Notes: a model not told the origin generated them from the sequence alone. 64,000 nucleotides of DNA from Chitinophagales bacterium (GCA_015655125.1 JAATFP010000019.1:1-64000), one strand, 5' to 3'; counted from the stretch's first letter, positions 47 to 57,742 are shown. Program-made: numbers and translations.

Positions 47-179
47 GTTCAAGGTTCAAGGTTCAAGGTTCAAGGTTCAAGGTTCAATGTTCAAGGTTCA
101 AGGTTCAAGGTTCAAGGTTCAAGGTTCAAGGTTCAAGGTTCAAGGTTCAAGGTTCAAGGTTCAAGGTTCAAGATTCAAG
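47..179. repeat. Tandem 7-bp repeat (GTTCAAG)n, about 19 units, with a reverse-complement tail at about 186-213
   Basis: Direct reading: units start every 7 bp from 47 to 173 with two variants (gttcaat, attcaag), followed by attgaacattaaaccttgaacctt. Confidence 0.95.
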
Positions 180-215
180 GTACAACATTGAACATTAAAC
201 CTTGAACCTTAAACA

Positions 216-2693
216 CTACATAGCGTCCACATCCGCAATCACATGTACACTCTTGTACATTTTCTCTGCCAGCATGAGGTTGATATGATTACGGATCACT
301 TTTTTATAGTTCAGGCTCATCCCTGGCTCCTTCGGCAATTTGATCATCACTTCCATCAGGTATAGATTCCGGATCCGACCTATCACCGGCGGTGCCGGCC
401 CTACCACGTAGTCTTTCAAATCCTGCCGTAATAAGGTTACAAGTTTATTCGCCGCTTCCGTAACAACCGTTTTGTCTTTATGTTTCAATGTCAGCATTAC
501 AAGTCGACTAAATGGCGGATAAAAAAACTCCTGCCGGTTAGTGATCTCAAACGCATAAAATTTTTCGTAATCATGTTGCTGCACCAGCTGTAGCACCGGA
601 TGTTTTACATTCATTGCTTGTATCAGCACCTTTCCTTGTTCATGCTTCCGTCCCGCACGGCCACTCACCTGCTCCATCAGTTGAAAAGCACGTTCGTTCG
701 CCCTGAAATCTGCGAAGCTTAATAAACCATCTGCATCCAAAACGCCCACCAGGCTTACCTTTTCAAAGTCGAGTCCTTTTACCACCATCTGAGTTCCTAC
801 CAGAATATCCAGCCGATGTTGTTCAAATAACTGGATCAGATTGTCGTGCGCCGTTTTGCCGCGAACGCTGTCCACATCCATGCGTGCTATTTTAAAAGAA
901 GCAAAATCTTCTTCCAGTTGTTCCTCAATTTTTTCGGTACCAAAATTTTTCTCCAGCCAGCTGTTGCTGCCGCAGGCCGGGCAGGTAACCAATTTCGGAT
1001 AAGTGCTGCCGCAATAATGGCAATGCAATTTATTGCTGAATTTATGAAGCGTAAGCGATACATCGCAATGAACACATTGCGGAATATGCCCGCATGTTCC
1101 GCAGATGAGATACGGATTGTAACCGCGCCGGTTTTGAAACAAGATCACTTGCCGGTCTGCTTCCACCGCTTTTTGTACGGCTTCTTTCAGTTGCGGACTG
1201 ATCATTACCTTGCCTTTCTGCGCAACCTGGCTCGTGTTTACAATTTCGATTGCCGGCAACTTTAAGCCACCATATCTTTCTGCCAGTTTTACCAACCCGT
1301 ATTTATTTTGCAATGCGTTGTGGTAACTTTCCATCGAGGGCGTTGCCGTTCCCAGCAATACTTTTGCATCGAATAAGGACGCGTAGAAAATGGCTGCATC
1401 ACGGGCATTATAGCGCGGTGCCGGATCCTGTTGTTTGTAAGAGGCGTCGTGCTCTTCGTCCGTAATCACGAGGCCCAGGTCCTTGAATGGTAAAAACAAT
1501 GCACTTCTTGCACCGAGTACGATCTTCACTTCACCGGTCCTTATCTTGTTCCATAATTCGATCCGCTCCTGGTTGTTGAACTTTGAATGATAGATCGCAA
1601 TATTTCCGCCGAAATGTTTTTGCAACCGCCGGATGATCTGCGCCGTTAGTGCGATCTCCGGAAGCAGGTACAACACCTGCTTCGCCCGATTGAAATATTC
1701 TTCGATCAGTTTTATATACAACTGTGTTTTGCCGCTGCCGGTGACTCCGTGTAACAAACACACCGCTTTTTCAGAAAATGATTTTCGTATTTCCGCAAGG
1801 CTTTGCTGCTGCGCTTCGCTCAATTCAAAGTCGATGTCGATCTTTTTTGGAAACATGGCAACCCTGTCCACGCTTCGCTTCTCGGTAAAAAGTATCTGTT
1901 TGTCGCAAAGCCTCTTCAATTGCGCAGCAGTGGCGCCTGATTTTTTTAATAAGGCCGTTTGTGTTACATCGCCTTCCGTTTTTTGCAGATGCAAAAACGC
2001 CAGCAACAATTCCATTTGTTTGGGTGCGCCTTTCCAATCGTTTAAAATAGCGCTTAGCGATTCTTCATCCGCCACTTCAGGATTGAGAAGTACATAATTT
2101 TCTTTCCTGACCTTGTATCTTTCGTTCAATTCTTCCCAGATGAAACAAATGTTGTTATCAATCAGCTTTTTTATAACAGGATAAACGTGCGAAACATCCA
2201 GTATTTGCTGCACTTCCGTAAGATGCAGTTGCTTTCTTACAAGCAATGCTTCCGCCACGATAAATTCTTCATCAGACAAATCAGTAAAATTTTCGCCGAT
2301 CTCTTCGTTGTAAATCAAAATGGTTTCGCTGCTCAACTTAAAATTGGCGGGCAACGCTGCGGCCATCACTTCGCCTTCGGAACACATATAATAATCGCTG
2401 ATCCATTTCCATAATTTCAACTGCTCCGGATATAGCAACGGCGCGTCATCGAGAATATTCAGAAGTGCTTTTGTTTTATAAGCCGGTGAACTGGTATGCA
2501 CGGCTTTAATGACACCCGCGTATTTTTTATTTTTTCCAAACACCACTTCTGCCCGGCAGCCGGTGATTGCCCGCGATAACAACTCTGCCGGAACGGCATA
2601 AGTGTACACCATCGGTACGGCCAACGGCAGGATGATCTCTGCCCAGTGGGTGAAATGATCTTCGGTAAAATTGATTTCGGCCGGTTCGTACAT
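216..2693 (-). CDS. priA: Primosomal protein N' (replication restart helicase PriA)
   Basis: 825 aa; LLHGVTGSGKTQLY Walker A, DEEH box, Zn-binding CxxC clusters (CGTCGHIPQCVHCD...CHYCG...CPACGS). Confidence 0.95.
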   Translation of the reverse strand: MYEPAEINFTEDHFTHWAEIILPLAVPMVYTYAVPAELLSRAITGCRAEVVFGKNKKYAGVIKAVHTSSPAYKTKALLNILDDAPLLYPEQLKLWKWISDYYMCSEGEVMAAALPANFKLSSETILIYNEEIGENFTDLSDEEFIVAEALLVRKQLHLTEVQQILDVSHVYPVIKKLIDNNICFIWEELNERYKVRKENYVLLNPEVADEESLSAILNDWKGAPKQMELLLAFLHLQKTEGDVTQTALLKKSGATAAQLKRLCDKQILFTEKRSVDRVAMFPKKIDIDFELSEAQQQSLAEIRKSFSEKAVCLLHGVTGSGKTQLYIKLIEEYFNRAKQVLYLLPEIALTAQIIRRLQKHFGGNIAIYHSKFNNQERIELWNKIRTGEVKIVLGARSALFLPFKDLGLVITDEEHDASYKQQDPAPRYNARDAAIFYASLFDAKVLLGTATPSMESYHNALQNKYGLVKLAERYGGLKLPAIEIVNTSQVAQKGKVMISPQLKEAVQKAVEADRQVILFQNRRGYNPYLICGTCGHIPQCVHCDVSLTLHKFSNKLHCHYCGSTYPKLVTCPACGSNSWLEKNFGTEKIEEQLEEDFASFKIARMDVDSVRGKTAHDNLIQLFEQHRLDILVGTQMVVKGLDFEKVSLVGVLDADGLLSFADFRANERAFQLMEQVSGRAGRKHEQGKVLIQAMNVKHPVLQLVQQHDYEKFYAFEITNRQEFFYPPFSRLVMLTLKHKDKTVVTEAANKLVTLLRQDLKDYVVGPAPPVIGRIRNLYLMEVMIKLPKEPGMSLNYKKVIRNHINLMLAEKMYKSVHVIADVDAM

Positions 2694-2834
2694 CGGTGAA
2701 TAGTCGATAGTGAATCTTCAAAGTTACTGTGAAAATGGCGGTTGGTTTTTATAATCTGAAGCTTCTGTTTTCACCGCAAAGAAAAGAGTAAACAGAGTTT
2801 TCGCAGAAATGAAAAATATACCTTTGCGAAAACC

Positions 2835-3611
2835 CTATTTACTACGGCTCTCTGCGGCTGAAAAAATCCAGGAAGCTTTGTACCTGATCAAAGCATTTTC
2901 CATATTATGATACACTTTCATCTTTAGTTTCTCAACATCGGCCAGGGTATACCCATCCACTTCCACTTCTTCGAGAAATACGGCGCGCGACCTTCCTGGA
3001 TTGAGTGAAAAGATACTTTTATAATTCAGCCGGTCGTACGCATCGAGAAAAATAACGGGCTGCACGGATGTCTGCGTTTCGATTGCCACTCTGAAAGCGC
3101 CGTCGTAAAATTCTTTCAGTGGTTGATGCGTCGTGTTGAAAGTTCCTTCAGGCGCTATGACAACGGAAATATTTTTACGCAGCATGGATTTCAGCTCGTA
3201 AACGCTTTTTGCGCGGGCACCGGCGCTGCTGCGCTGAACGGAAACGACTGCGTTCCTGTAAATATATCCGAAGACGGGAATTTTGCCCAGTTCGGCTTTG
3301 CCGAGAATACGGATCGGCTGGCGACGGAACACTTTAAGCAACAATGGTATATCCATATAAGAGATATGGTTGAAGACAAATACCACGGCGTGATCGGTAC
3401 TTTTAGGTGCATCGTAGTAATTTATATGCCAAATGCCGCAGAAAAAAAGTACGATATCGGCCCAAATGCGACACAGACTATATATTATATTACCACCACG
3501 GATCCTTCCGAAAAAGGAAGCGACGATCACAAATGGAAAAATAAGGAACATCACCGCGAGAAATATGGCAAAAGCGTAAATACTGAAAACTGCCCGGAAA
3601 AATCTGATCAT
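2835..3611 (-). CDS. 1-acyl-sn-glycerol-3-phosphate acyltransferase (PlsC-like)
   Basis: NHISYMDIPLL (NHxxxxD-type motif) and APEGTFN motif, N-terminal TM segment. Confidence 0.85.
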   Translation of the reverse strand: MIRFFRAVFSIYAFAIFLAVMFLIFPFVIVASFFGRIRGGNIIYSLCRIWADIVLFFCGIWHINYYDAPKSTDHAVVFVFNHISYMDIPLLLKVFRRQPIRILGKAELGKIPVFGYIYRNAVVSVQRSSAGARAKSVYELKSMLRKNISVVIAPEGTFNTTHQPLKEFYDGAFRVAIETQTSVQPVIFLDAYDRLNYKSIFSLNPGRSRAVFLEEVEVDGYTLADVEKLKMKVYHNMENALIRYKASWIFSAAESRSK

Positions 3612-3630
3612 AGTCGCAAGTTAAGCGGGG

Positions 3631-3740
3631 AAATGGATAAAATTTGTAATGGATAATGCTTTTAAGCCACGGCTATATATAATAGGATACAATCTTGGAT
3701 CAACAGGATTATCCATTATCCATTTTAAAATTATCCATTA
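3631..3740. repeat. Inverted word repeat: aatggataa (left) / ttatccatt (right)
   Basis: aaatggataaaatttgtaatggataat at 3631-3657 and attatccattatccattttaaaattatccatta at 3708-3740. Confidence 0.75.
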
Positions 3741-3853
3741 AAAACACCTTGATAACCAATACCTTTGACATGACCGAATAGCTTTCAGGAATAAAAATGT
3801 GCCTTTCGGGGCAAATAGTTCAAAAAAAGCTAAAATATTATCTTTAAAACCCC

Positions 3854-3861
3854 TACCTTTG
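3854..3861 (+). promoter_or_regulatory. Putative Bacteroidota -7 box TACCTTTG upstream of rplU
   Basis: Matches TAnnTTTG; about 23 nt upstream of the rplU ATG; -33 box not obvious. Confidence 0.5.
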
Positions 3862-3883
3862 CCGTCCTAAATTTAGGTTCGTT

Positions 3884-4186
3884 ATGTTAGCAATAGTAAA
3901 AATCGCAGGTCAACAATTCAAAGTAAAAGCAGGAGATAGCTTATACGTTCCTCACATCGGGGGAAAAGCAGGAGATTCAGTAGAATTCTCTGATGTACTT
4001 CTTACAAGCAGCGGAAGCGATGTTGTAAGTTCAGGTGTAAAAGCAACTGTAAAAGCTGAGATCATCAGCGACCTGGTTAAAGGCGAAAAAGTGATCGCTT
4101 TTAAAATGAAAAGAAGAAAAGGTTTCCGTAAAAAGCACGGTCACCGTACGCAGTATACTCACATCAAAGTAACTGCAATCGCTTAG
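3884..4186 (+). CDS. rplU: 50S ribosomal protein L21
   Basis: MLAIVKIAGQQFKVKAGD...KMKRRKGFRKKHGHRTQYTHIKV. Confidence 0.97.
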   Translation: MLAIVKIAGQQFKVKAGDSLYVPHIGGKAGDSVEFSDVLLTSSGSDVVSSGVKATVKAEIISDLVKGEKVIAFKMKRRKGFRKKHGHRTQYTHIKVTAIA

Positions 4187-4237
4187 TTAATTTTGAATGT
4201 AAACGTTCAGGATTTTCAACATTTAAAAAAGTAAACA

Positions 4238-4504
4238 ATGGCACACAAAAAAGGTGAAGGCTCGGTAAAAAACGGCCGTGATTCACAAAGCAAAAGATTA
4301 GGTGTAAAAATATTTGGTGGTCAACCTGCGCTTGCCGGAAACATCATTCTTCGTCAGCGTGGTACACAATATCACCCTGGCAAAAATGTTGGTGTTGGCA
4401 GAGATTTTACCATCTTCGCATTAACTGATGGCGTGGTAGAATTCAAAAAAGCAAAAGGAGATAAAACTTTTGTTTCCATCAGCGAAGTAGAAGCAACAGC
4501 ATAA
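4238..4504 (+). CDS. rpmA: 50S ribosomal protein L27
   Basis: [24 protein letters not shown]; adjacent to L21. Confidence 0.97.
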
Positions 4505-4583
4505 TTTTTTATAAATTTTTTTGGTAATATCAAAATAGTATTTATTTTTAAGTATTATTTACTAACCAATTAAATTTAAAAAA

Positions 4584-4784
4584 ATGGCAACAAAGAAAAA
4601 AGCAGCTCCTAAGAAAGCAGCTCCTGCAAAAAAAGCAGCTCCTAAAAAAGCGGCTCCTGCAAAAAAAGCAGCTCCTAAAAAAGCGGCTCCTGCAAAAAAA
4701 GCAGCTCCTAAAAAAGCAGCTCCTGCAAAGAAAGCAGCTCCTAAAAAAGCAGCAGCAAAAAAAGCAGCTCCTAAAAAGAAATAA
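4584..4784 (+). CDS. Small Lys/Ala/Pro-rich histone H1-like protein
   Basis: 66 aa made of four AAPKKAAPAKK (33-bp) repeats plus AAPKKAAAKKAAPKKK tail. Confidence 0.8.
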   Translation: MATKKKAAPKKAAPAKKAAPKKAAPAKKAAPKKAAPAKKAAPKKAAPAKKAAPKKAAAKKAAPKKK

Positions 4785-4812
4785 GCTAAGCTTACTTAAA
4801 GAGCAAAAAATA

Positions 4813-4843
4813 ACAGTCCTGGTTTTAGAGCCGGGACTTTTTT
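4813..4843 (+). terminator. Rho-independent terminator after the histone-like gene
   Basis: agtcctgg-ttttaga-gccgggact followed by a T tract. Confidence 0.8.
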
Positions 4844-4964
4844 ATTAAACCCACTCCTGCAGCGCATTTCAGTATGATCAAAACTATTTTCATTTTATTT
4901 TTTTGCTAAAAAAAAGCCAAAGAGCGCTCTCGCTTTCATTGAGCCATTGTACTAAATTTGGTAC

Positions 4965-6632
4965 ATGGATAATTATCAGATCGCCGACAACTTCACGCTT
5001 CTTTCTAAACTCATGGACATCTATGGAGAAAATAGTTTCAAGTCGAAATCATATTCGGCTGCAGCATTCGCCATAGAAAAATCTCCTGTTCAACTAAGCG
5101 AAATTCCAAAGGAAAATATCGCTTCCATCAAAGGTATCGGCACCTCATCGGCACAAAAAATAATCGAGTTACTGGAAACAGGACAGCTAAAAAGTCTCAA
5201 CGACATCATTTTTATGACACCGCCGGGCGTGGTTGAAATGTTAAATATTAAAGGCCTCGGCCCAAAGAAGATCCATACAATCTGGAAAGAAATGGAGATC
5301 GAAAGTATCGGCGAATTGCTATATGCCTGCAAAGAAAATCGTTTGAAGCTTTACAAAGGCTTCGGTGAAAAAACACAACAGAACGTAATTGAGATCATCG
5401 GGTTTTATCTCAACAACAAAGGCAGTCATTTATATGCGGGCATCGAAAATATCGTTCCGCAAATTGAAGAACATTTACTGAATAGTTTTGCCGGAAAACG
5501 GGTCTTATTGACCGGCAATTTTAAGCGGCAATTACCTACCATCGACGAACTTGAATTTGTAATTGAAGCCAATGAAGAAACCATTGAAAAAATAATGCTT
5601 GGCCAGGAAGGATTTTCGTTAAAAGAAAGAAGAGAAGATTGTATAATTTATAACAACAGTTTGGGCCTGGACGTAAAAATTTACTGGACAGGTGAAAAAG
5701 ATTTCATTCACAAATACATTGTCACTTCTTCGTCTGCAGCATTCAGCGAAGCGCTTTTTTCTATTACCGACAGAGAGAATATAAAAGATGAGATCGCTTG
5801 TTTTACTTCTGCGAAACTACCTTTCATACCGGCACCTATGCGGGAAGATCCGGCACTGATCAATCTGTTAAGCGCCGGACTTTTACCGGAAGTGATACAA
5901 CTGGATGATATTAAAGGAATTATCCACTGTCACAGTAACTGGAGTGATGGCAGCAATACCGTTGAAGAAATGGCCCTGGCCGCTATGGAACGCGGCATGG
6001 AATATCTTGTGATCAGCGACCATAGTAAATCGGCGTTCTATGCACAGGGACTTTTTGAAGAAAAGATCATCGCCCAGCATCAATACGTGGATGAACTCAA
6101 TAAAAAATTGCACCCTTTTAAAATCTTCAAAAGCATTGAAAGCGATATTCTGAATGATGGAAGTCTGGATTACAGCAACGAAGTGCTCGCCACATTCGAT
6201 CTCGTGATCGCATCTGTGCATAGCAATTTAAAAATGAGCAAGGAGAAGGCCATGACTCGTTTATTAAAAGCGATTGAAAATCCATTCACCACCATTCTTG
6301 GTCATATGACCGGCAGATTGTTATTGAGCCGCGAAGGTTATCCGGTGGATCATGAGATCATCATCGATGCCTGCGCGGCAAACAATGTAGTGATAGAACT
6401 AAATGCCAGTCCGAGCCGGCTTGATATGGATTGGAAATACATTCAATATGCACTTCAAAAAAATGTATTGATCTCTATCGATCCGGATGCGCATAGTATT
6501 GATGCGTTGGATTATAATAAATATGGTGTGTTGGTAGCGCAGAAAGCGCTGCTGCCGAAAGAAAGAAACCTGAGTAGTTTTGATTTGGTACAATTTGAAG
6601 AATATCTGAAACAAAGAAAAGCGCGTAGTTAA
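4965..6632 (+). CDS. DNA polymerase X family/PHP-domain protein
   Basis: Helix-hairpin-helix N-terminus (IKGIGTSSAQKI, IKGLGPKKIHTIW), C-terminal PHP motifs (IIHCHSNWSDG, ISDHSK, DPDAHS). Confidence 0.88.
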   Translation: MDNYQIADNFTLLSKLMDIYGENSFKSKSYSAAAFAIEKSPVQLSEIPKENIASIKGIGTSSAQKIIELLETGQLKSLNDIIFMTPPGVVEMLNIKGLGPKKIHTIWKEMEIESIGELLYACKENRLKLYKGFGEKTQQNVIEIIGFYLNNKGSHLYAGIENIVPQIEEHLLNSFAGKRVLLTGNFKRQLPTIDELEFVIEANEETIEKIMLGQEGFSLKERREDCIIYNNSLGLDVKIYWTGEKDFIHKYIVTSSSAAFSEALFSITDRENIKDEIACFTSAKLPFIPAPMREDPALINLLSAGLLPEVIQLDDIKGIIHCHSNWSDGSNTVEEMALAAMERGMEYLVISDHSKSAFYAQGLFEEKIIAQHQYVDELNKKLHPFKIFKSIESDILNDGSLDYSNEVLATFDLVIASVHSNLKMSKEKAMTRLLKAIENPFTTILGHMTGRLLLSREGYPVDHEIIIDACAANNVVIELNASPSRLDMDWKYIQYALQKNVLISIDPDAHSIDALDYNKYGVLVAQKALLPKERNLSSFDLVQFEEYLKQRKARS

Positions 6633-6636
6633 TTTT

Positions 6637-6838
6637 ATCGCAGATTTCTTTTTCCCGCAAGCGGGATTGATTAAGGGATTACGCAGATTGGATTTTGCTG
6701 CGCAAGATGAGTGCGATGATCTAAGCGAAATTGGCTGATTCAGACAACATTTCTCCGAAGGATAAAATCCCGCTCAGGCGGGACAAATCTGCGTAATCCC
6801 TTAATCAATTTGCGAAGCAAAAGAAAAAATCTGCGATC
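6637..6838. repeat. Large interrupted inverted repeat between convergent genes
   Basis: GATTAAGGGATTACGCAGATT / AATCTGCGTAATCCCTTAATC (21-bp exact) plus outer ATCGCAGATTTCTTTT / AAAAGAAAAAATCTGCGAT. Confidence 0.85.
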
Positions 6839-6857
6839 AAAAATTCGCGATCAAAAT

Positions 6858-9800: not shown

Positions 9801-10706
9801 ATTAAGCGGAACGGGCAATGTATAGCTGATAAGCCGTAATACTAACATGCCCAAAAAAAGAAAGGCAAAGCCGTAGATAAACCTTGTTTTTTGAATGATA
9901 TAGGAGGCCAATATGTGCAGGAAAATAAGAATGAACATCACTCCAAAAACGCGGCACCAAATGGAAAGTTCATTATTCTTGAAATTTTTTCCATTATAAA
10001 TCTGTTTTAAATGAAAGAGTGTTGTGCCATCGGAAGACTTTATATTACCTTCCCTTGCAACGCCGGATTCCACTTCATATTTGTTGTTGCTCCGGTGATC
10101 GTTGACGAAATTATTTTCAAGATAATCGTTTGTAACGATGTAGTTCCATTTTATGGGAATGAGGGCTATGGCTACGGCTCCTGTTTTGTAAACTTTGTTC
10201 CATACATAAAAGCCATTCGACAACTTTGCAAAACCCGATGCAGCCGGCGATTGCAACATTACACTATCCGGCAACACATATTGCGTGTTCCAATTGCTGA
10301 GCTCATAAGCACCATCGCTGTTTTTTTTGTAAAAGAATAAAAAATAATCCAGCGACGTAAATTCATGAAGTTCTTCCTCCGTATTCTTTTGGGCAATAAA
10401 TTTACCGACGAAGACAGAATCGCCGATCACCTGCTGAAATTCCTTTTCTTTTTGATGAATATATTCGTTGAGGCGTTTCGCCTCTGTATTCATATCATAA
10501 TTGGCCGACCAATAATTATCGCTGATAAACGAGATGGTAAATAACAATGCCGCTACCAGTAATAGATACAGGTTGTCTTTGAAGAAACGAGAAAAATTGA
10601 TTTGAGCACGCAAAATGTTTGATGTATATCTATGATGTGGATCTATGATGTATCTTCTACGCTTCTTTTGCCCTGTCAGCCTGAGCTTGTCGAAGGCCTT
10701 CGACAA
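6858..10706 (-). CDS. Large multi-pass membrane sensor histidine kinase (HAMP, HisKA, HATPase; NtrY-like catalytic core). True start may be near 10613
   Basis: GAWREMARQVAHEIKNPLTPMKLS H-box, NLIQNGLQAV N-box, DNGSGIDP and GTGLGLAMCRRIVEQ; many hydrophobic segments. Confidence 0.88.
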   Translation of the reverse strand: MSKAFDKLRLTGQKKRRRYIIDPHHRYTSNILRAQINFSRFFKDNLYLLLVAALLFTISFISDNYWSANYDMNTEAKRLNEYIHQKEKEFQQVIGDSVFVGKFIAQKNTEEELHEFTSLDYFLFFYKKNSDGAYELSNWNTQYVLPDSVMLQSPAASGFAKLSNGFYVWNKVYKTGAVAIALIPIKWNYIVTNDYLENNFVNDHRSNNKYEVESGVAREGNIKSSDGTTLFHLKQIYNGKNFKNNELSIWCRVFGVMFILIFLHILASYIIQKTRFIYGFAFLFLGMLVLRLISYTLPVPLNFRQFELFNPAIYGSDYILKSLGDLLINAGLFLWFILFVRFHLQERNLRFSFKNERIKWIALVAGVFVILLTTFTGSSIIRSIIADSQISFDVINFFSLNIYTAISFVALSCIAIGYFFLCQIILFLLKMHYKRLMLTFFLATIVIGFFILSFRIGNITGDFEFFVLAWLLIFLFLLNSDHFYLIASRVVTSRLVFWIFFFSVSISAIIIKENSNKEIRNRQHYAEILVSKSNPTSETLINTMLTDFRADFLANNFYRLHDEISNHFFKDSLVNNNFSGYTDKYDTRIFSFNEKEQPLFNIDNNNFNDLNTILNTQAKPTGIQGLFYYDEGYDKFNYITKKTIVDTSRALIGYIFILVSPKYAKNEALSPELFSKGHNNAIENSSTYAFAIYDNGRLVGSHNDYPFATRYEEKYYPNSKYLMINRNNHSEMWYNAGGGKYVVIAKENSLSIESLTLFSYLFCSFLMLTAFAWLLNVIIGSRFKWSVITSNWQLSIRNQIHGTIIFFSVASFFIIGIATIVFFINRYESNNREKLSSTITIMEKEVKNSFSPGWLKSDTVQMSEQSNQQTIENNINRISEIHGVDVNLYTTNGDLRVSSLPLPYIKGIVSKKMEPEAFFHLSNQKEVQFFQKEHIGKLEFLSSYVPVVDSAGVTYAYLNVPYFTSQSKLRDEISNFLVTIINLNAFIFLIAGIVALFITNRITNTFSLIGEKMKKINLGTHNEPIEWHRSDEIGDLVNEYNKMVNKLDESAQALAKTEREGAWREMARQVAHEIKNPLTPMKLSMQFLQKSIENNAPNVKELSEKVANTLVEQIDHLSNIANEFSQFANIENAKMMRIDLNESIRSIRQLYTGNTNTSFEWIIPKDPVYIFADKTHINRLLTNLIQNGLQAVGDDKTPHIVISEEPDENSVLIKIKDNGSGIDPAMQSKIFTPNFTTKSSGTGLGLAMCRRIVEQSNGTIYFETSAEDGTTFFVRYPLASEA

Positions 10707-10718
10707 GCTCAGGCTGAC
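10675..10718. repeat. 44-bp perfect palindrome, REP-like (GTCAGCCTGAGCTTGTCGAAGG/CCTTCGACAAGCTCAGGCTGAC)
   Basis: Direct reading of both arms. Confidence 0.95.
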
Positions 10719-10778
10719 GTTTTTAGATTATTGGCACATTATAAAATTCGTAGTAAATCATACATCGCAGATCATGGA

Positions 10779-11552: not shown

Positions 11553-11556
11553 AAAT

Positions 11557-12732: not shown

Positions 12733-12829
12733 GGATGATTTTTTTGTTAAAAATAATAAAGTTTGTCGGCATGCGGTAACTTAACATGGGTTTAGCTTGC
12801 TAACTTAGCAACTTCTTATTCTAAAAAAT

Positions 12830-13663: not shown

Positions 13664-13732
13664 TGAAAATCTTCACGGAGCGTTGTTAATCCCTTTCGAC
13701 GTAATCCTCCCTGACAGGATACCCGATATAAA

Positions 13733-13763
13733 AAAGCGCCTGAATTTATTATTCAGGCGCTTT
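13733..13763. terminator. Bidirectional terminator between convergent genes
   Basis: aaagcgcctgaat-ttatt-attcaggcgcttt. Confidence 0.85.
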
Positions 13764-13816
13764 AAATTTTAATCCTATTAAAAAATTGTACTCTTTAAAG
13801 ATTTCATCATTGATCC

Positions 13817-21009: not shown

Positions 21010-21125
21010 GCTTGCATTTTTTCAGCTGTCAATTTAGTTCAAATTGACGAAGGTGAAGCAAAGGTGTAACTTTTTTTACAACTGTTTCGTTACTCTGTTT
21101 GGCAACAGAAAATTAGCTTACATCT

Positions 21126-21185
21126 ATATCCGTGTCATCCTGAGCTTGTCGAAAGCCTTCGACAAGCTCAGGATGACACGGATAT
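21126..21185. repeat. REP-like perfect inverted repeat (28-bp arms, 4-nt loop)
   Basis: ATATCCGTGTCATCCTGAGCTTGTCGAA-agcc-TTCGACAAGCTCAGGATGACACGGATAT. Confidence 0.95.
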
Positions 21186-21196
21186 AAAAAATTAGT

Positions 21197-24762: not shown

Positions 24763-24809
24763 AAAGTTCGACACGTTCAATGTTCAATGTTGAAGGTTTC
24801 AGGTTGGCG

Positions 24810-24858
24810 TTAAATTCAAAGGCTCTTGTAAATGATTTACAAGAGCCTTTGAATTTAA
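24810..24858. terminator. Long bidirectional terminator-like palindrome
   Basis: 23-bp perfect arms TTAAATTCAAAGGCTCTTGTAAA / TTTACAAGAGCCTTTGAATTTAA with 3-nt loop, between convergent genes. Confidence 0.88.
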
Positions 24859-24901
24859 AAACTTTGAACTTTCAACATTGAACCTTCCACGGCCGAAGGC
24901 G

Positions 24902-26227: not shown

Positions 26228-26518
26228 AATATATTATTGAATGTTTAAATTATACAAGGTTGAAAAATTGCTCATTATTTTTATGGTTCCGCCTTTTCAA
26301 ATTGAGTATTGACACAGCATTTGAGAGATCAGCCACACACTTTGTTCTTTGATGAAAATATCGGCAAGAGCAAGAAAAAATAATCCTTAAAATTACAAAA
26401 AATCTATCATGTATGATCTGTGATCTATGATTTCCATCAAATTTTTAGCGCTTTTCGAAAACTATTTTACTTCAATAATTATAAAAGGAGATCATACCCC
26501 AAAGATCATATGAATAGA

Positions 26519-31999: not shown

Positions 32000-32126
32000 T
32001 TTGCTTTTATTTTAAACTTACGCCCCGAAAGCATTCGGGGCTCGCGTTATTAATTAATAATTAAGAATTAATAATTAAGAATTTTCTCAGCGATTGCCGT
32101 TCAATTATTAACTATCAGTTGTTCAT

Positions 32127-32309: not shown

Positions 32310-32320
32310 TGTTATTAATT

Positions 32321-32395
32321 TATGATCTATGATCTGAGATCTATGACCTTTGAGAAATATGACAGTTCATAGATCTCAGATCATACATCATAGAT
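32321..32395. repeat. ATGATCT-word inverted repeat in the rpsE-rpmD gap
   Basis: ATGATCTGAGATCTATGA (32329-32346) pairs exactly with TCATAGATCTCAGATCAT (32367-32384). Confidence 0.9.
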
Positions 32396-33303: not shown

Positions 33304-33356
33304 CTTCTTTTATTTATTTCCCCGATACTGCCGGAGAATGATTTGAAAATTATTTA

Positions 33357-35680: not shown

Positions 35681-35692
35681 TTTATTTTCGCT

Positions 35693-35775
35693 TTTAGCTA
35701 TTAGCGGTTAGCTATTAGCTGTTCTTATTAATTTAAAAATTCTCTGGCTAATAGTTTAAACCTACCAGCTAACAA
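35693..35775. repeat. TTAGCTA-word inverted repeat in the rplN-rplX gap
   Basis: ttagctattagcggttagctattagctgtt ... ggctaatagtttaaacctaccagctaac. Confidence 0.75.
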
Positions 35776-36148: not shown

Positions 36149-36159
36149 TTCTTTGTATT

Positions 36160-36267
36160 TATGATCTATGATTTAAGATCTATGATCTTAAAGAGTAAAA
36201 TCTTTTAAAAATCTTTTAAATTTATCAGGGTTTGTCAGATCATAGATCATAGATCATAGATCATACA
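36160..36267. repeat. ATGATCT-word inverted repeat in the rpsQ-rplN gap
   Basis: tatgatctatgatttaagatctatgatctta ... cagatcatagatcatagatcatagatcatacatt. Confidence 0.85.
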
Positions 36268-36274
36268 TTCCATC

Positions 36275-37280: not shown

Positions 37281-37290
37281 CTCTTTTGAT

Positions 37291-37402
37291 TTATGATGTA
37301 TGATCTTCGATCGATGATCTTTGACCGTACATTATTTAAGATTCTTTTTAATTTTTAAACTTTTCGAGATCATAGATCATACATCATAGATCATATATCT
37401 CA
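37291..37402. repeat. ATGATCT-word inverted repeat in the rpsC-rplP gap
   Basis: ttatgatgtatgatcttcgatcgatgatct ... gagatcatagatcatacatcatagatcatatatctcag. Confidence 0.85.
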
Positions 37403-38743: not shown

Positions 38744-38820
38744 ATTAAGTTGTAAGTTTTAAGTGGTAAGTTTTAAGTTAAGCCATTCGACTTATTACTT
38801 AAGACTTATTACTTATCACT
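38744..38820. repeat. TAAGTTTT-word inverted repeat in the rpsS-rplV gap
   Basis: taagttgtaagttttaagtggtaagttttaagttaag ... cttattacttaagacttattacttatcact. Confidence 0.75.
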
Positions 38821-44402: not shown

Positions 44403-44431
44403 CATTATTTTTTACGCTTAAAAATACCACT

Positions 44432-46261: not shown

Positions 46262-46354
46262 AAAGAATCACCGATCCTATTAATAAAAAGTTTCGAATAG
46301 TTCTTAAATTTAAGCGCTATTTGAACACTCGAATGACCACCATCCCGATAGTGT

Positions 46355-47131: not shown

Positions 47132-47179
47132 ACGTTCATTCAGGGGCGATATATTACCTAAGTTTGTTGATATTGGCAT

Positions 47180-47215
47180 AAAAAAACCGGTGACTACCAT
47201 CACCGGTTTTTTTTT
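47180..47215. terminator. Rho-independent terminator
   Basis: AAAAAACCGGTGA-ctacca-TCACCGGTTTTTTTTT. Confidence 0.9.
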
Positions 47216-47262
47216 CTGGATGAAATCCTGTTCACATTAGCCGAAAAACTCTGCATTTCAAG

Positions 47263-47964: not shown

Positions 47965-48164
47965 ATCAATGAATTTAGATTGAGTGCAAATATTTGGAAA
48001 ATAATGTTGCGAAGCAAACCATTTATCAAGTTTGGATGATTTAGAAGTTTAGCGGCTGCGGCCTGTTTTGGTTTAAAGCATGTTGTGATCCCGTCCGTAC
48101 GACGTTCGGCCGGGCGGGCAGCCATTATTGACCATTCCCCCATTGACTCATTCCGCCATTCACC

Positions 48165-48172
48165 TATCTTTG
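48165..48172 (+). promoter_or_regulatory. Putative -7 box TATCTTTG, TTG 19 nt upstream, for guaA
   Basis: TTG at 48143-48145 then 19 nt then TATCTTTG, 8 nt before ATG. Confidence 0.55.
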
Positions 48173-48180
48173 CATCGTTT

Positions 48181-49716: not shown

Positions 49717-49870
49717 ATTGGTTTAGGGTTTAGAGGTTAGGGTTGGTTTAGAGGTTTAGCGGACTTCAGCCTGTTTAGACGTGTAGTGTTGAAGATTGAG
49801 AACTTTTAGACCTTGCCAGACAAATCAAACGCTTCAAAGATTTCACTATTGACTATTCACCATTGACTAT

Positions 49871-51052: not shown

Positions 51053-51078
51053 ATGAGCCTGGGGTGTGAGATTTCAGG

Positions 51079-51723
51079 TTACCCCAACAGTTTTTGAATA
51101 TGCGGGTTGATCTCAACAGCCTTGTTAAGTATCATAAAATGACCGCCGGACTTTATCACGATATCGGCTTTTACAAATCGCAGCGGAAGGATCTTATCCG
51201 CCGATCCATGGATATGACTCACTCCAGGTAAAACCTCTTCATTTTTCCAGGAAATGATTTCACCCATTGCCCATTTTAAAAATGCGGGATCGGTATCTTT
51301 TAAAATGGCAGCGAGTAATTTTTGCTCTCTCACAGATCGCGCCCCAAAGAACCAGTTAGTGACAAAGTTTGATTGCTTCAAAACCGTTACGGGCAGTAAG
51401 TTGTGCAAACCCAATTTACCTGCAATCCGGTAATACCAGGGAACTTCCTTTTTATCTCTGGCCGAAGATATGATGATCAGTTTCGCCGGCCGGACTATTT
51501 TTCCCACTTCAATGGCCATCATTCCTCCAAAAGACAACCCGATGAATGCGGCTGCGGGAACGGTGATCTGCAATGCAATACGGCTGGCGTATTGTTTCAT
51601 GGATTCTTTCGGCTGCGGCTTCAGCCAGTTTACATGGATCAATTTGAAGCCCGGAATATCGAGATCCTGAAAGACGCGTTGGTCGGCGCCAAGCCCGCTG
51701 AATAAATAGATCCTTGGTTGCAA
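51079..51723 (-). CDS. Alpha/beta hydrolase
   Basis: YLFSGLGADQRVF, FIGLSFGGMMAIEVG nucleophile elbow, HIHGSADKILP. Confidence 0.8.
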   Translation of the reverse strand: MQPRIYLFSGLGADQRVFQDLDIPGFKLIHVNWLKPQPKESMKQYASRIALQITVPAAAFIGLSFGGMMAIEVGKIVRPAKLIIISSARDKKEVPWYYRIAGKLGLHNLLPVTVLKQSNFVTNWFFGARSVREQKLLAAILKDTDPAFLKWAMGEIISWKNEEVLPGVSHIHGSADKILPLRFVKADIVIKSGGHFMILNKAVEINPHIQKLLG

Positions 51724-51777
51724 ATCATTACTTATGATTGGTAAAATTAGCCCGTTTTATTTCTTGCCGGTAAACCG

Positions 51778-51819
51778 ATATAAAAAATCCACCCCGTAAA
51801 CGGGGTGGATTTTTTATAT
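51778..51819. terminator. Bidirectional terminator
   Basis: ATATAAAAAATCCACCCCG-taaa-CGGGGTGGATTTTTTATAT. Confidence 0.92.
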
Positions 51820-51853
51820 TAACCGAAGCCGTAGCTTCAATATATCTATTATC

Positions 51854-54800
51854 TTATCTCACAATCGTTACCTGACCTGTTGCCAGACGTTTGTTGCTTG
51901 CATCAGATACCACCACAAAATAAATACCTGAACCTTCATTGCTGAGGTCAACATCCATTCTTGCGTAAGCACCAGACAAAGCAGAGAAAACTTGTTTTCT
52001 TACCTGTGCACCTTTTGAATCATACACCGTTAAAGTGCGGCTATGTGTTCCACCACCTCTATTGTAATATCTAACCTGGAATTTACCGCTTGTAGGGTTA
52101 GGATAGATGAACAGGATGTTTGAAGCAGAATCAGCCAATACAACTGTTCCTGAAGTATCGGAACAACCGACATTGTTGGTAGCAACAACCTGATAAGAGC
52201 CAAAGTCATCAACCGATACAGGATATACCGGAGTAGTTACGCCACTAACCAAAACATTGTTTTTCAACCATTGGTAAGTGTAAGTTCCCGGAGGGCTAAC
52301 AACTGAAGTGAGGGTCGTTCTAACATACGGAGTAATGTTTGCATAAGATGCAAGTTGCAACTCAACTGTTGGTTTAGGATTAACAGTAAGCGTTGCTGAA
52401 GCAGATGCGACATCACCGCAAGGAACACCATTTACCAATACCCTGTAAGCGGCACCGCTTAACAAAGTTGTTGGATTTGTGATGGTCAATGTATTTGTTG
52501 TGGCGCCTGAATAAGGACCACTGTTTGACACGTTAAGGAACGGACCGCCGCTTACGCTGATCTGCCATTGATAAGTAACGTTAGTACCTGTTGCGGTTAC
52601 TGCGAATATTGCACTTTCGCCAGCACATTTAGAAACACTCACAGGTTGTGCAGTAATCGTTGCCGGAATGTTAACCGTAAGCGTTGCAGCAGATGAATTT
52701 ACAGTTGCACAAGGTGAAGTAACGATCACCCTGTACTGTGTGTTATTAAGTGAACCGGTTGTAGCTGGAGTAGTATACGTAGCCGTAGTTCCGCCAGTAC
52801 CGGTTGAAACGTTGGTCCATGTAGTACCGTCTGTGCTTACCTGCCATTGATAGGTAACATTGGTACCAGTTGCAATCACTGAAAATGTTGCCGCATCACC
52901 CGCGCATTTTGCAATGCTTGCTGGTTGCGTAGTAATTGCCGCAGGAACATTCACTGTAAGTGTTACAGGAGTGGAAGTAGCTTGTGCGCACTGAGAAGAT
53001 GCGATTACCCTGTATTGGTAACCACTCATTGCTACAGTTGTAGCCGGTGTAGTGTAAGAAACAGTAGTTCCACCTGTACCGGTTGAAACGTTTGCCCAAC
53101 TTGTACCGCCATTAGTGCTAACCTGCCATTGGTAACCAGTTGCCGGTGTACCGGAAGTTGCAACGGTAAATGTTGCTGTTAAGCCAACACACACTGCCTG
53201 ATTTGTTGGAGCAGTTGAGATTGTCGGAGGCGTACCAGGGTTGATCGTGAATGAAACCACCTGTGTTTTTGTGATAGTGCCGGAAACACCCGTAACTGTA
53301 ATATTATATGTGCCGGGAGCCAGAGTACTGATACCACCGATGGTAATTACAGAGCTGTTACCCGGAACTACAGTTGCCGGAGCAAAAGTAACAGTTGCAC
53401 CAGTTGGTACACCTGCAGTTGCAGATAAGTTAACCGGAACTACATAACCACCAGTAGATGTCGTAGCCAAAGTGATGGTAGTAGAAGTGGCATTACATGG
53501 AACACTAACTGTAGCAGGGGCCACGAAGTTAAACTCATTTAGCGGAGCAGAAATTACAAAATTGCTATTAGATATATCGAAAAAGATATTACCGATTGAT
53601 TCGATCTTGATCCTTGCAGTTGTAGTGGGAGTAGCAGGGATCGTAAGTAATTCTGAACCGTCATTAGCAGTACTGGCTGCCAATACGGCAGGAAATGTAA
53701 GACCGCCATCTGTAGACAAAGAGATCTTAACGTTCGCGCAATTGATAGGAGAACCTGTAGTTCCTGCAACATCCCATGTAATGGTTTGCTGAGAACCGCC
53801 CGGGTAATCAACGTTTGTGTTAGGTGCTGTAACCATGAAAGGACCGGTACTGGCATCAACAGTTACCACCATATCATCAAAAGCAGTCTGACCAACTTTG
53901 ATTGGTGCAGTAGAACTGTAAAGAACATTATCTCTTACAGTCAGTCTGAAGTTCAATGTTCTTGCAACAGAGCTCAATGCTTCAACATTTGCTATCGCAT
54001 CGCCACCAAGTGTAGGCGTTACAAACAAACCTGCAAGGACAGTTGACAATCTTGGACAGGTTCTTGACGGATTTGTCGTAGGGCTGAATGACAACCAGTT
54101 TGGCCCGGTTGCCTTGGTTGGAATGGCAACGCTGTTGGCGCCGGTTGTAGTGGAGTTATCATTTTGTTCCCAGCAATATGTCAATACATCAGCAGCGTTC
54201 GCATCAGTTGCGGAGCCATTGAGCATGAACGGAGTGCTTTTTGGAATAGTAAAGTCAGCACCTGCATTTGCCACCGGGGTAGCATTATTAGGTGTGATAA
54301 CAGTTGTTACCGGGCAGGTTTTACCCGCCAGGTTCGTCTGGATCTGTTGAATGGACGCTTCATGATAAATATCGATTGAATGCGGAGCAACGTCATAAGA
54401 AGTAATACCGGCATACCCCATGATAGTGATACCGGAGCCAACTTCCTTATTTACACCAGTACCCTCAAGAGACATAGAGAAAGTGTGGTTAGCACCTAAT
54501 TGGTGACCTATTTCATGTACTACGTAATCGATATCGAAGTTGTCGCCTTCAGGATGGCCATCTGCAGGAGAAGTGATACCACTTCCTTTTGATCCGTTCA
54601 CACAAACACAACCTATACAACCGGCATTACCGCCACCACCTGATGCACCAAACATGTGGCCAATATCGTAGTTGGCTTCACCAATGATAGATGTTAATGT
54701 ACTCTGCAACTGCCCGTTCCATGAATTTAAGTTGGTATAGGGATCTGTTGCGGGATCGTAAAATATCACATTAACCGTTTCTGGAATCAGGTTAAGGTGA

Positions 54801-55558
54801 AGTGCCAGATCTTTTTCATAAACGCCATTACAACGTGTAAGCGTAGTATTGTAAGCAGCCAAAACCAGCGCAACGTCAGCTGAACTGAAGGCATTGAAAT
54901 AGTTGGAATATTCACCGTTACAAGACTGGGCAAGGCGCATTGTCTTCAATTCGCCTGATGAACTTTGTGTAAAGCCGGGTGTGTTACCGATATCGCCTCT
55001 CAAAGAAGATTCGATGGCTTTATCTTCCGTAGTACAGGTCCATGGCAACTGGCCGGGAGTTCTGTAAGATTTGTAAGAAGCGTATACAGTGTGATCTGAA
55101 GAATACGGTTCAAGGAACTCATTTACCCTTTCCGTTCTGAAGATCATACCATGAACACCACGCGGAGAGATATCCAGTTTCAGCGACGAGGCTTTGTCGG
55201 TGATGCCTCTGCCGGAAAAGGCCCTGATCTGCGGGAACTGGGCCTGGAGTGCAGGTTCAAAGTTAGAAGCTTCAACGATCTCGAACTGTTCGATACCGCC
55301 GTCAGCATTAGGTAAGGTGATCACAGTTGAATGTTTTGCAGCATTTTTACCTGTGATAGACATAACCTGTTGTCTGAACACATCTATATTCAGTACATTT
55401 AATTTGAATTCTTTAGGGAAAGAAAGTCTTGCAACCGATTTATCGGTTGCTATCTTACTACCGTCCTGCCGGTAGGCCGACCACGATCTGTCTGTTTGTG
55501 CAAACGCGAGAGCCGTAAACGCCGCAAACAATACTGTTAGGAGTAAAGCTTTTCTCAT
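51854..55558 (-). CDS. Secreted reprolysin-like zinc metallopeptidase with Ig-like repeats and T9SS type A sorting domain
   Basis: HEIGHQLGANHTFSM zinc motif; repeated Ig-like modules; C-term FIYPNPTSGKFQVRYYN...GIYFVVVSDASNKRLATGQVTIVR. Confidence 0.9.
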   Translation of the reverse strand: MRKALLLTVLFAAFTALAFAQTDRSWSAYRQDGSKIATDKSVARLSFPKEFKLNVLNIDVFRQQVMSITGKNAAKHSTVITLPNADGGIEQFEIVEASNFEPALQAQFPQIRAFSGRGITDKASSLKLDISPRGVHGMIFRTERVNEFLEPYSSDHTVYASYKSYRTPGQLPWTCTTEDKAIESSLRGDIGNTPGFTQSSSGELKTMRLAQSCNGEYSNYFNAFSSADVALVLAAYNTTLTRCNGVYEKDLALHLNLIPETVNVIFYDPATDPYTNLNSWNGQLQSTLTSIIGEANYDIGHMFGASGGGGNAGCIGCVCVNGSKGSGITSPADGHPEGDNFDIDYVVHEIGHQLGANHTFSMSLEGTGVNKEVGSGITIMGYAGITSYDVAPHSIDIYHEASIQQIQTNLAGKTCPVTTVITPNNATPVANAGADFTIPKSTPFMLNGSATDANAADVLTYCWEQNDNSTTTGANSVAIPTKATGPNWLSFSPTTNPSRTCPRLSTVLAGLFVTPTLGGDAIANVEALSSVARTLNFRLTVRDNVLYSSTAPIKVGQTAFDDMVVTVDASTGPFMVTAPNTNVDYPGGSQQTITWDVAGTTGSPINCANVKISLSTDGGLTFPAVLAASTANDGSELLTIPATPTTTARIKIESIGNIFFDISNSNFVISAPLNEFNFVAPATVSVPCNATSTTITLATTSTGGYVVPVNLSATAGVPTGATVTFAPATVVPGNSSVITIGGISTLAPGTYNITVTGVSGTITKTQVVSFTINPGTPPTISTAPTNQAVCVGLTATFTVATSGTPATGYQWQVSTNGGTSWANVSTGTGGTTVSYTTPATTVAMSGYQYRVIASSQCAQATSTPVTLTVNVPAAITTQPASIAKCAGDAATFSVIATGTNVTYQWQVSTDGTTWTNVSTGTGGTTATYTTPATTGSLNNTQYRVIVTSPCATVNSSAATLTVNIPATITAQPVSVSKCAGESAIFAVTATGTNVTYQWQISVSGGPFLNVSNSGPYSGATTNTLTITNPTTLLSGAAYRVLVNGVPCGDVASASATLTVNPKPTVELQLASYANITPYVRTTLTSVVSPPGTYTYQWLKNNVLVSGVTTPVYPVSVDDFGSYQVVATNNVGCSDTSGTVVLADSASNILFIYPNPTSGKFQVRYYNRGGGTHSRTLTVYDSKGAQVRKQVFSALSGAYARMDVDLSNEGSGIYFVVVSDASNKRLATGQVTIVR

Positions 55559-55621
55559 AATTGTAGTTTAATTTGTCGCTAAATTATTACTTTTTTTTGA
55601 TTTCGGTGAATATCTTGAAAA

Positions 55622-55708
55622 AGTTTAGAGTTTAGCGATTAATGGTTAGATTCTATACCTTGTTAACTGGTTGTAATGAGCTAACCACTAATGGCTAAAC
55701 CCTAAAGT
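55622..55708. repeat. TTTAG-word inverted repeat
   Basis: agtttagagtttagcgattaatggttag ... gagctaaccactaatggctaaaccctaaa. Confidence 0.75.
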
Positions 55709-56526
55709 CATACAGATACATTAAAGTCCCTCAGCGCCTCATTCAGACTCGTTTTCAAGTCGGTACTAGGTTTCCGCTGGCCGATAATGAGCGCGCAAGG
55801 CACTCCATATTCACCCGCCGGGAATTTTTTGTTATAGGTTCCGGGTATCACCACGCTGCGCGCCGGCACCATACCTTTCGTTTCCACAGGCTCCGTTCCG
55901 CTCACATCTATGATTTTTGTGCTCTGCGTAAGAACCACATTGGCTCCCAAAACCGACTCTTTCCCAACCCTAACACCCTCCACTACTATACAACGGCTGC
56001 CTATAAAACAGCCATCTTCAATTATCACCGGACTTGCCTGAACAGGTTCCAGCACGCCACCAATCCCTACACCGCCACTAAGATGTACGTCTTTCCCGAT
56101 CTGGGCGCAACTCCCCACTGTTGCCCAGGTATCCACCATGGTTCCCTCATCCACATACGCACCGATGTTTACATAAGAAGGCATGAGCACCACATTTTTT
56201 GCGAGGAACGCTCCATAACGCGCCACCGCATGCGGAACCGCCCTTACCCCAAGGTCCTTGTAATTGGTTTTCAATTTCATTTTATCGTAAAATTCAAATG
56301 GTGGCAAACTGTATGTCTGCATCTGCTGCACCCCGAAATACAGTAATATCGCCTGTTTCACCCACTCATTCACCTGCCACCCATTACCATCAGCAGCAGG
56401 TTCGGCCGTACGCAATTTGCCTTTATCAACGCTTTCAATCACATCCTTGATTGCCTCGATATAATTTTCTTCTTTTATGAGTTCCCTGTTCGCCCATATT
56501 TCTTCGATCATTTGTTTTGTGTCCAT
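55708..56526 (-). CDS. dapD: 2,3,4,5-tetrahydropyridine-2,6-dicarboxylate N-succinyltransferase
   Basis: PHAVARYGAFLAKNVVLMPSYVNIGAYVDEGTMVDTWATVGSCAQIGKDVHLSGGVGIGGVLEP; start at MDTKQMIEEIW. Confidence 0.95.
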   Translation of the reverse strand: MDTKQMIEEIWANRELIKEENYIEAIKDVIESVDKGKLRTAEPAADGNGWQVNEWVKQAILLYFGVQQMQTYSLPPFEFYDKMKLKTNYKDLGVRAVPHAVARYGAFLAKNVVLMPSYVNIGAYVDEGTMVDTWATVGSCAQIGKDVHLSGGVGIGGVLEPVQASPVIIEDGCFIGSRCIVVEGVRVGKESVLGANVVLTQSTKIIDVSGTEPVETKGMVPARSVVIPGTYNKKFPAGEYGVPCALIIGQRKPSTDLKTSLNEALRDFNVSV

Positions 56527-56555
56527 ATTCTTTAGGTTTATGCAAAAATACCTAA

Positions 56556-56668
56556 AGTTCAAGGTTCAAAGTGCAAGGTTCAAAGTATAACATATGAAAT
56601 GACTGTTTTATAAAAACTTTTAGACCTTTGAACTTTTAAACCTTTGAACCTTGAACTTTGAACTTTCA
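56556..56668. repeat. GTTCAAG-word inverted repeat
   Basis: agttcaaggttcaaagtgcaaggttcaaagt ... acctttgaacttttaaacctttgaaccttgaactttgaactttc. Confidence 0.85.
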
Positions 56669-57677
56669 ACCATCAACTTTGACTCAACCGCAAACGATAC
56701 TAATAAGACTTCCCAACTGGCTCGGTGACGTGGTGATGAGTACAGCTTTGGTAAAAGCAGTGAGGGAAACTTTCCCGGATGCGAAAGTGGACTTTATCAT
56801 AAAGAAAGGCCTCGACTTTTTACTCGATCATTTTCCGGCGCACGAAAACCGGTTTGTTTTTTCAAAAGAGGAATATAAAGGATTGAGCGGTGCGATGAAA
56901 TTCGGCAGAAAAATAAAGTAGCAAAAAAAATACGATCTTTTCATTTGCCTGCCCGATTCCTTTTCTTCTGCAATGATGGCGTATGCAACAGGCGCCAAAA
57001 AACGCATCGGTTTCAAAAACGAGATGCGGTCGTGGCTTCTTACCAATACATTTCTCAAAAAGAAAGGGATTCACCGCGTGGAAGAATATGTGGATCTGCT
57101 ACAGCAATTTTCCGGCACACACATAACATCCCCGGAAGTTGTGCTTTCCCATGCATCCACCCAAAAAAACGACCGGCTGGTGATCAACATTAATTCTGAA
57201 GCTAGTTCCAGGAGGTTGCCTGTAGCAAAAGCGATCAGCATCATAGAAGCGGTACAGGAACGGGTTTCACAGGAAATATTTTTACCCGGAAGCCCCAAAG
57301 AAAAGCCTTTTGTGGATGAAGTATACAATGGCCTTGCCGTCAAAAAAAATATTCATAACATGGCCGGTAAAACAACGCTCCCGCAATTGCTCGAACTCAT
57401 CGGCGGAAGCGCCGTGACCCTCACAACAGACAGCGGACCGGCGCATGTTGCCAACGCGCTTGGAAGTCACAGCATCGTATTGTTTGGTGCCGGAAATGAA
57501 AACAATACTGCACCATACAACAGAAAAAACAGGACGATCATCAGGCTCGGCGAGCTCGGTTGCGAACCGTGTACAAAAAATAGCTGTAAATTGTACGATC
57601 AGCCGAAGTGCCTGACGTTGCTCGATGAAAATTTTATTGCCGGTAATGTGGAAGCACTGCTGAACATGAACAGGTGA
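56658..57677 (+). pseudogene. Glycosyltransferase family 9 (heptosyltransferase-like) interrupted by an in-frame TAG at 56919-56921
   Basis: ILIRLPNWLGDVVMSTALVKAVRETFP ... FGRKIK*QKKYDLFICLPDSFSSAMMAYATGAKKRIGFK ... TDSGPAHVANALG; both halves in the same frame. Confidence 0.8.
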
Positions 57678-57742
57678 TGGTGAATATAACCCAGTAACCG
57701 CACGGCATTCCGAAACTTCTAAACCCCTAAACACTAAACTGA

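Follow-up and report, generated by a model that had tools for sequence, protein, structure and literature searches.

Heptamer hairpins between the genes of a Chitinophagales bacterium: probable gene-less relatives of S23-encoding intervening sequences

Many gaps between genes in a 64,000-nucleotide stretch of a Chitinophagales genome (GCA_015655125.1, JAATFP010000019.1:1-64000; hereafter the window, which lies on contig C103 of a draft genome of 3.75 Mb) carry hairpins whose AT-rich arms consist of short, quasi-tandem words, with different words in different gaps. What are these hairpins, and where do they come from? Here we report that they are probably gene-less members of a family of intergenic elements akin to those intervening sequences (IVS) of 23S ribosomal RNA (rRNA) that encode S23. 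The hairpins are read in this way because of their association with S23 genes, the 12-mers that they share with the S23 elements of their own genome, their scarcity in S23-poor genomes and the differences between close genomes at S23 sites. They are called IVS-like rather than IVS because they are sited between protein genes; the only locus inside a large-subunit rRNA gene was an Azospirillum one (L420). ORF (open reading frame) calls were heuristic throughout, and an Rfam search of the window returned tRNA as its sole match.

The repeat sequences that an earlier note on the window had listed were found where it had placed them, and its claim of one architecture with changing words holds well above chance. 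With the long GTTCAAG array excluded, the autocorrelation of the window gaps peaked at lags 7, 14 and 21 only (z 7.5, 5.5 and 2.6). A scan for unit periods covered 805 kb of this genome, where period-7 runs amounted to 70 per 100 kb of gap versus 2.5 per 100 kb of coding sequence (about 28-fold); unit periods other than multiples of 7 stayed at or below 5 per 100 kb of gap, except period 16 (9.5). Inverted repeats with a score of at least 12 numbered 120 in the gaps and 1-6 in dinucleotide shuffles. Inverted arms of at least 14 nucleotides were periodic at 7 in 17 and at 14 in 16 of 104 cases, with at most one case for any other period, and 33 of 57 period-7 arrays had a reverse-complement partner within 160 nucleotides, compared with none when the surroundings were shuffled. 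The earlier note had also assigned each gap a word of its own and the arms a spacing of about 20-60 nucleotides. The words do vary, but the common factor is a period of 7 nucleotides (7-9 in relatives), the words recur as a few genome-wide families, and the loops actually span about 14 to 75 nucleotides.

One ATGATCT pair, on contig C95, encloses an ORF of 119 amino acids that matches Pfam family PF05635 (23S_rRNA_IVP, also S23 or four-helix-bundle protein; E 2e-14). This genome has six PF05635 loci; three of them (on C95, C36 and C24) lie within clear arms of distinct words (ATGATCT, GTGAATAGT and GTTCAAG), and the other three have weaker or partial arrays or lie at a contig end. Across the genus, in a comparison set that includes genomes titled Ferruginibacter, 66 of 93 PF05635 copies stand between matching inverted arms of 7-9-nucleotide words (inverted-repeat score of at least 12), versus 3.9% when flanks were mixed between different copies and 2% for ordinary genes, which served as the second control. 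The arms are periodic in 62 of these 66 elements, at 7 (40), 8 (11) or 9 nucleotides (11) and with a median of four copies, and most shuffled arm pairs (45) were without any period. The 5' arm is G-rich (G>C) in 64 of the 66, as it is in 33 of 37 period-7 hairpins without a gene in this genome. Complementary, stem-forming ends are present in window gap elements and in S23-bearing elements alike, and in the predicted folds of the latter the two arms pair around the gene. Pairs of S23 proteins with 60-80% identity share words (mean 5-mer cosine 0.44 versus about 0.05; Mantel p 0.0005). The searchable literature held no earlier description of a link between heptamer hairpins and S23, and literature searches on Chitinophaga heptamer hairpins found nothing. 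Four further loci (L269, L273, L274 and L275) carry S23 domains in longer ORFs (285-309 amino acids), with GTTTG-type 7-mer arrays upstream and 9-mer arrays downstream.

About half of the gene-less arrays can be matched to S23 elements of their own genome. Since chance matches between AT-rich arrays made a comparison of 7-mers uninformative, words of 9 to 12 nucleotides were compared instead: a 12-mer was shared with the flanks of the six S23 genes by 32 of 67 arrays, compared with a mean of 2.9 and a maximum of 14 for 1000 random sets of six from other genomes. A genome with no S23 gene (G027) and one with a single copy (G026) had no period-7/8 arrays in samples of 7.6 and 7.9 kb of gap, respectively; genomes with 4-12 S23 genes had 30-69 arrays per 100 kb of gap (small samples). 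Over 32 genomes, again as small samples, the numbers of S23 copies and arrays were correlated (rank correlation 0.49, p 0.005).

The nearest relative of the window species gave long matches no better than about 75-79% DNA identity, and empty sites were therefore looked for in another genome pair, G016 and G083, whose identity is 97% in the ribosomal region and about 87-96% in the surroundings of S23 sites. Of six such sites, three are not alike in the two genomes: the first is an empty site in G083, with flanks 92-95% identical; at another, G083 has an S23 element and G016 an unrelated hairpin-like filler; at the third, G083 has a different AT-rich sequence. Ordinary gaps of the same pair had a median identity of 97%, with 1 of 48 replaced. 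At the filled counterpart of the empty site, the last codons of the upstream gene differ too. The S23-bearing carriers of the architecture are thus gained or lost as units between close genomes, the behaviour for which the earlier note had proposed comparing strains. The filler (G016:C84 4103-4258, L351) is C-rich (CTCATCCCTACTCTTCTCCC...GGGGAGGATAGGTGGGG) and perhaps represents another word family.

REP (repetitive extragenic palindromic) or MITE (miniature inverted-repeat transposable element) repeats mobilised by an ordinary transposase would also yield inverted arms, intergenic positions and dispersed ATGATCT and GTTCAAG copies, and REP/RAYT and MITE systems resemble the hairpins as short, dispersed, intergenic inverted repeats. 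Each such family, however, has one sequence, whereas the elements here have a common architecture and a changing word: arms are common within a word family, and no sequence is common to the word families, as the earlier note had recognised. Moreover, the one empty site has no target duplication, and the enclosed gene is S23 and not a transposase, although no search aimed at RAYT or other transposases was made. Mobilisation of this kind is highly improbable.

The earlier note had suggested, as one possibility, a generating mechanism such as template switching or slippage. In a purely mutational version of this, slippage would make tandem 7-mers and fold-back template switching would copy the inverted arm, without any element. 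In most bacteria rich in long simple repeats, heptanucleotides are the commonest kind, and slippage was put forward as a source (Mrazek 2007, cited in PMC4679880); pure arrays such as 47-185 exist. The words, however, form dispersed families with common arms and inner flanks: a 14-nucleotide ATGATCT pattern matches the genome 143 times and its reversed control never, the order of the arms is identical in all 24 pairs found in the sequence examined, and about half of the pairs share an inner stretch (left TCAAATTTTTAGAG, right CTCTAAAAATTT..AAGATC, as judged by eye) around differing centres. Since ATGATCT recurs genome-wide with a fixed arm order and a partly common inner stretch, its copies arose by dispersal and not by independent invention. 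No copy-number change of arrays was seen between genomes about 97% identical (one pair), which also led to the rejection of simple slippage. Given this, the fixed orientation, the tight S23 association and the words that match S23 elements of the same genome, a purely mutational origin is scarcely credible. Two further candidates were set aside: copying by a resident RVT_1 reverse transcriptase, as the genome has no match to PF00078, and telomerase-like addition at break ends, which had been prompted by the G-rich word pointing inward on both strands and was dropped after the S23 link emerged.

Several observations weigh against the reading of the window hairpins as gene-less IVS-like elements. 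The window itself has no PF05635 match, about half of the arrays of this genome lack a 12-mer match to one of its S23 flanks, and the words AATGGATAA and TTAGCTA found no S23 partner in this genome. Among the S23 copies of the genus, 27 of 93 are without a matched arm pair at an inverted-repeat score of at least 12, and the S23 samples were best-scoring matches, not random draws. All S23 pairs with at least 70% identity are at the same locus, so that the coupling of word and protein is largely joint descent. The empty S23 site shows no clean target duplication, the single comparison is compatible with insertion and loss alike, and none of the seven gene-less arrays that were compared across close genomes had changed.

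The elements of the window are as follows (stem scores are given with the highest score among shuffles).

47-214, plus strand: GTTCAAG element with array 47-185 and complementary arm 184-214; best stem 68-98/184-214, score 23.5 (shuffles at most 10), fold z -5.6; the word also flanks the S23 gene at C24:23360 of the same genome.
3638-3727, no strand assigned: AATGGATAA/TTATCCATT element, arms 3638-3669 and 3696-3727; stem 14.5 (at most 11), fold z -3.0.
10617-10775, no strand assigned: imperfect ATGATCT arms 10617-10655 and 10756-10775 around a nested palindrome at 10675-10718 (GTCAGCCTGAGCTTGTCGAA), which is the strongest stem.
24775-24887, no strand assigned: GTTCAA arms 24775-24805 and 24860-24887, enclosing a terminator-like hairpin (24810-24858) in a convergent gap.
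26405-26510, no strand assigned: degenerate ATGATCT element, arm 26405-26432 with weak partner 26487-26510; the left array is a clear family member, the hairpin is not significant (fold z -0.7).
32047-32083, no strand assigned: AATTAATAATTAAG array of period 7/14, absent from the list of the earlier note; a similar word flanks an S23 gene in G083 (L348).
32318-32395, minus strand: ATGATCT element among ribosomal protein genes, arms 32318-32349 and 32364-32395; stem 24.5 (at most 11.5), fold z -7.0.
35690-35775, minus strand: TTAGCTA element in the L14-L24 spacer; fold z -2.4, ungapped stem weak (score 9).
36157-36268, minus strand: ATGATCT element in the S17-L14 spacer, arms 36157-36188 and 36237-36268; stem 24.5 (at most 9.5), fold z -6.1.
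37287-37393, minus strand: ATGATCT element in the S3-L16 spacer, arms 37287-37312 and 37368-37393; stem 18.5 (at most 11), fold z -3.9.
38746-38820, minus strand: TAAGTNN element in the S19-L22 spacer, arms 38746-38771 and 38790-38815; stem 13.5 (at most 8.5), fold z -4.3; AATAAGT also adjoins the S23 gene at C109:7783.
49720-49759, plus strand: GGTTTAG array directly 3' of a stop codon, with no paired partner.
49842-49870, plus strand: ATTGACTATTCACC array directly 5' of a start codon (opposite-strand word GTGAATA/GTCAATA); compare GTGAATAGT, which flanks the S23 gene at C36:75064.
55624-55706, minus strand: GTTTAG/GGTTAG element, arms 55624-55649 and 55681-55706; stem 18.5 (at most 10.5), fold z -7.3.
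56557-56670, plus strand: GTTCAAG element, arms 56557-56585 and 56642-56670; stem 21.5 (at most 10), fold z -6.9.

Thirteen window regions were tested for folding, and most of the hairpins named in the earlier note proved significant. Two were not (26402-26510, and 49717-49870, which has a fold z of -0.7, no paired arms and two different words) and one was weak (35690-35775). In the elements at 10617 and 24775, a second palindrome nested in the loop forms the strongest stem; the remaining tested examples had fold z values of -3.0 to -7.3 and arm scores exceeding all 60 shuffles. The nested palindrome at 10675-10718 is near-perfect (core CCTGAGCTTGTCGAAGG...CCTTCGACAAGCTCAGG) and dispersed, recurring at window 21125-21186, L143 12698 and L124 8540, and in one case lies inside an ATGATCT element. 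A further hairpin repeat with words such as GATTACGCAGATT and their reverse complement (window 6640-6850, L147 2196, L146 17319) is possibly another word family.

The minus-strand ribosomal-protein operon occupies 32-40 kb of the window. Architecture with 7- and 8-nucleotide words fills the spacers of this operon across Chitinophagaceae, which measure 80-130 nucleotides versus about 0-20 in Pontibacter, Hymenobacter and Bacteroidales; the arms tend to begin within about ten bases 3' of a stop codon and to finish a few bases 5' of the next start. Words at one spacer are sometimes common to several genera (AACTTA at S19-L22; AGCT/TTAGC at L14-L24, the site of the TTAGCTA element) and sometimes replaced. 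Such long spacers are what would be expected if an RNA structure were selected for mRNA stability, insulation or termination and slippage filled its stem with heptamers; Chitinophaga spacers also hold perfect, non-periodic hairpins, and the L6-L18 stems appear, by eye, to keep their pairing despite sequence change. Arrays are, however, equally frequent in convergent, divergent and co-directional gaps (10-12%), and selection for structure leaves the S23 association, the 12-mer sharing, the fixed orientation and the absence from S23-poor genomes unexplained, which makes it unlikely as the origin of the hairpins. The even spread of arrays over gap types is evidence against a function in promoters, translation or termination, and the terminator function raised in the earlier note is not favoured. 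Intrinsic terminators have a G+C-rich stem followed by a T run; the elements here have AT-rich stems and long loops and lie mostly between co-directional genes. Two other conserved features were seen in these spacers. A hairpin with loop GCAGTATC (CCCGGCAGTATCGGG) lies just 5' of the L18 gene in most Chitinophagaceae examined (window 33304-33356; L6-L18 gaps, e.g. L011, L021 and L045) and has no Rfam match in the window, and a motif, AAGCTGAACTATACTAAGCTGACCGGT, lies upstream of the L6 gene in S8-L6 gaps (L035, L043, L045, L046 and others).

How would gene-less IVS-like elements arise and persist? The full element measures about 0.5 kb and comprises a G-rich arm of about four quasi-tandem 7-9-nucleotide words, the S23 gene and a C-rich reverse-complement arm; with such arms, its RNA is predicted to form a long stem whose loop holds the gene. 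Every element carries its own word. On the present reading, gene-less copies retain the arms of one of the S23 elements of their genome and enclose other sequence. Between genes the folded insert may be tolerated, as an IVS is inside rRNA. We infer that the S23 protein binds its own word and acts in trans on the gene-less copies. The structure entries of S23 relatives (2gsc, 2rld) each contain five chains, and the Xanthomonas protein has been described as a homopentamer (PMC4990558); by analogy, it is plausible that a pentamer would bind the four or five tandem words of its own stem.

Such recognition could also mean that each S23 protein regulates genes by binding its own word in RNA or DNA, with the gene-less hairpins as its operators, for example in the ribosomal-protein operon. 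The word-protein coupling, which persists in 5 of 12 non-syntenic pairs of 60-70% identity, the words common to hairpins and S23 elements within a genome, and the arrays that abut start and stop codons would fit a regulatory network of this kind. Nevertheless, arrays are as frequent in convergent gaps as in the rest, close genomes show loss or replacement of element content between conserved gene neighbours, and PF05635 is missing in 32 of 148 sampled genomes of the phylum (present in 116), so that a regulatory network seems doubtful.

The IVS-like architecture reaches beyond the genus. Phylum-wide, matched arms were found at 17 of 30 S23 loci versus 1.3% with mixed flanks. The arm score was at least 14.5 at 9 of 14 plasmid-borne S23 loci. 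On cyanobacterial plasmids, S23 genes lie between heptamer arms, some of them inserted among cas genes; at L407, L410 and L413 the word-armed S23 genes lie within CRISPR-cas operons (cas6/cas4, or cas10/cmr3-family gene). At another of the plasmid loci, in Azospirillum (L420), an S23 gene within 23S rRNA stands between heptamer arms, a classical intervening sequence. Among phage records, no relative of the S23 query was found.

Cyanobacterial short tandemly repeated repetitive (STRR) sequences consist of intergenic seven-nucleotide units, with which the arms flanking the plasmid S23 genes may be compared; to our knowledge, neither they nor heptamer simple repeats have been described with partner arms or an associated gene. 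The earlier note knew of no named class that matches the hairpins; the nearest is the S23-encoding IVS of 23S rRNA. In the IVS of Coxiella, a terminal inverted repeat of 28 bp and tandem heptamers accompany an S23 ORF that lies in the loop, and RNase III excises the element (PMC4990558). The elements here, like the Azospirillum rRNA copy, resemble it in their inverted stem-forming ends, their tandem arm heptamers and, where the gene is present, the S23 ORF in the loop. They differ in their location between protein genes and in their many copies, which have different words and mostly lack an S23 gene. Long simple sequence repeats with heptamer units (Mrazek 2007, cited in PMC4679880) are likewise intergenic. 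The TAACTGA repeats of Beggiatoaceae, cyanobacteria and Bacteroidetes (MacGregor 2015, PMC4679880) are, according to the accessible text, intergenic heptamers that often lie just 5' of start codons, also occur in ribosomal-protein operons and can be lacking in close relatives at the same gene neighbours; they differ in that a single word, not found among the window words, forms direct repeats almost without inverted partners, and no S23 link is drawn in that text. The Avd accessory protein of diversity-generating retroelements is a four-helix-bundle homologue of PF05635 (PMC10053308) but is the partner of a reverse transcriptase, a family without a match in this genome.

Intergenic heptamer repeats have been on record for years without a cause, and S23/IVP proteins, whose function is not known (PMC4990558), are often annotated just as four helix bundle protein. 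The present reading would connect these scattered repeats of bacteria with the intervening sequences of rRNA genes; the tie between S23 and the repeats offers a likely substrate for the protein and a likely source for the repeats, and makes a protein-word recognition code testable. It is quite possible, though we propose it tentatively, that S23/IVP proteins and heptamer hairpins form one widespread class of elements in Bacteroidota, cyanobacteria and rRNA IVS, in which each S23 pentamer recognises its own 7-9-nucleotide word and maintains or spreads its own element and the gene-less copies. If true, this would account for many unexplained bacterial heptamer repeats, with word and protein changing together.

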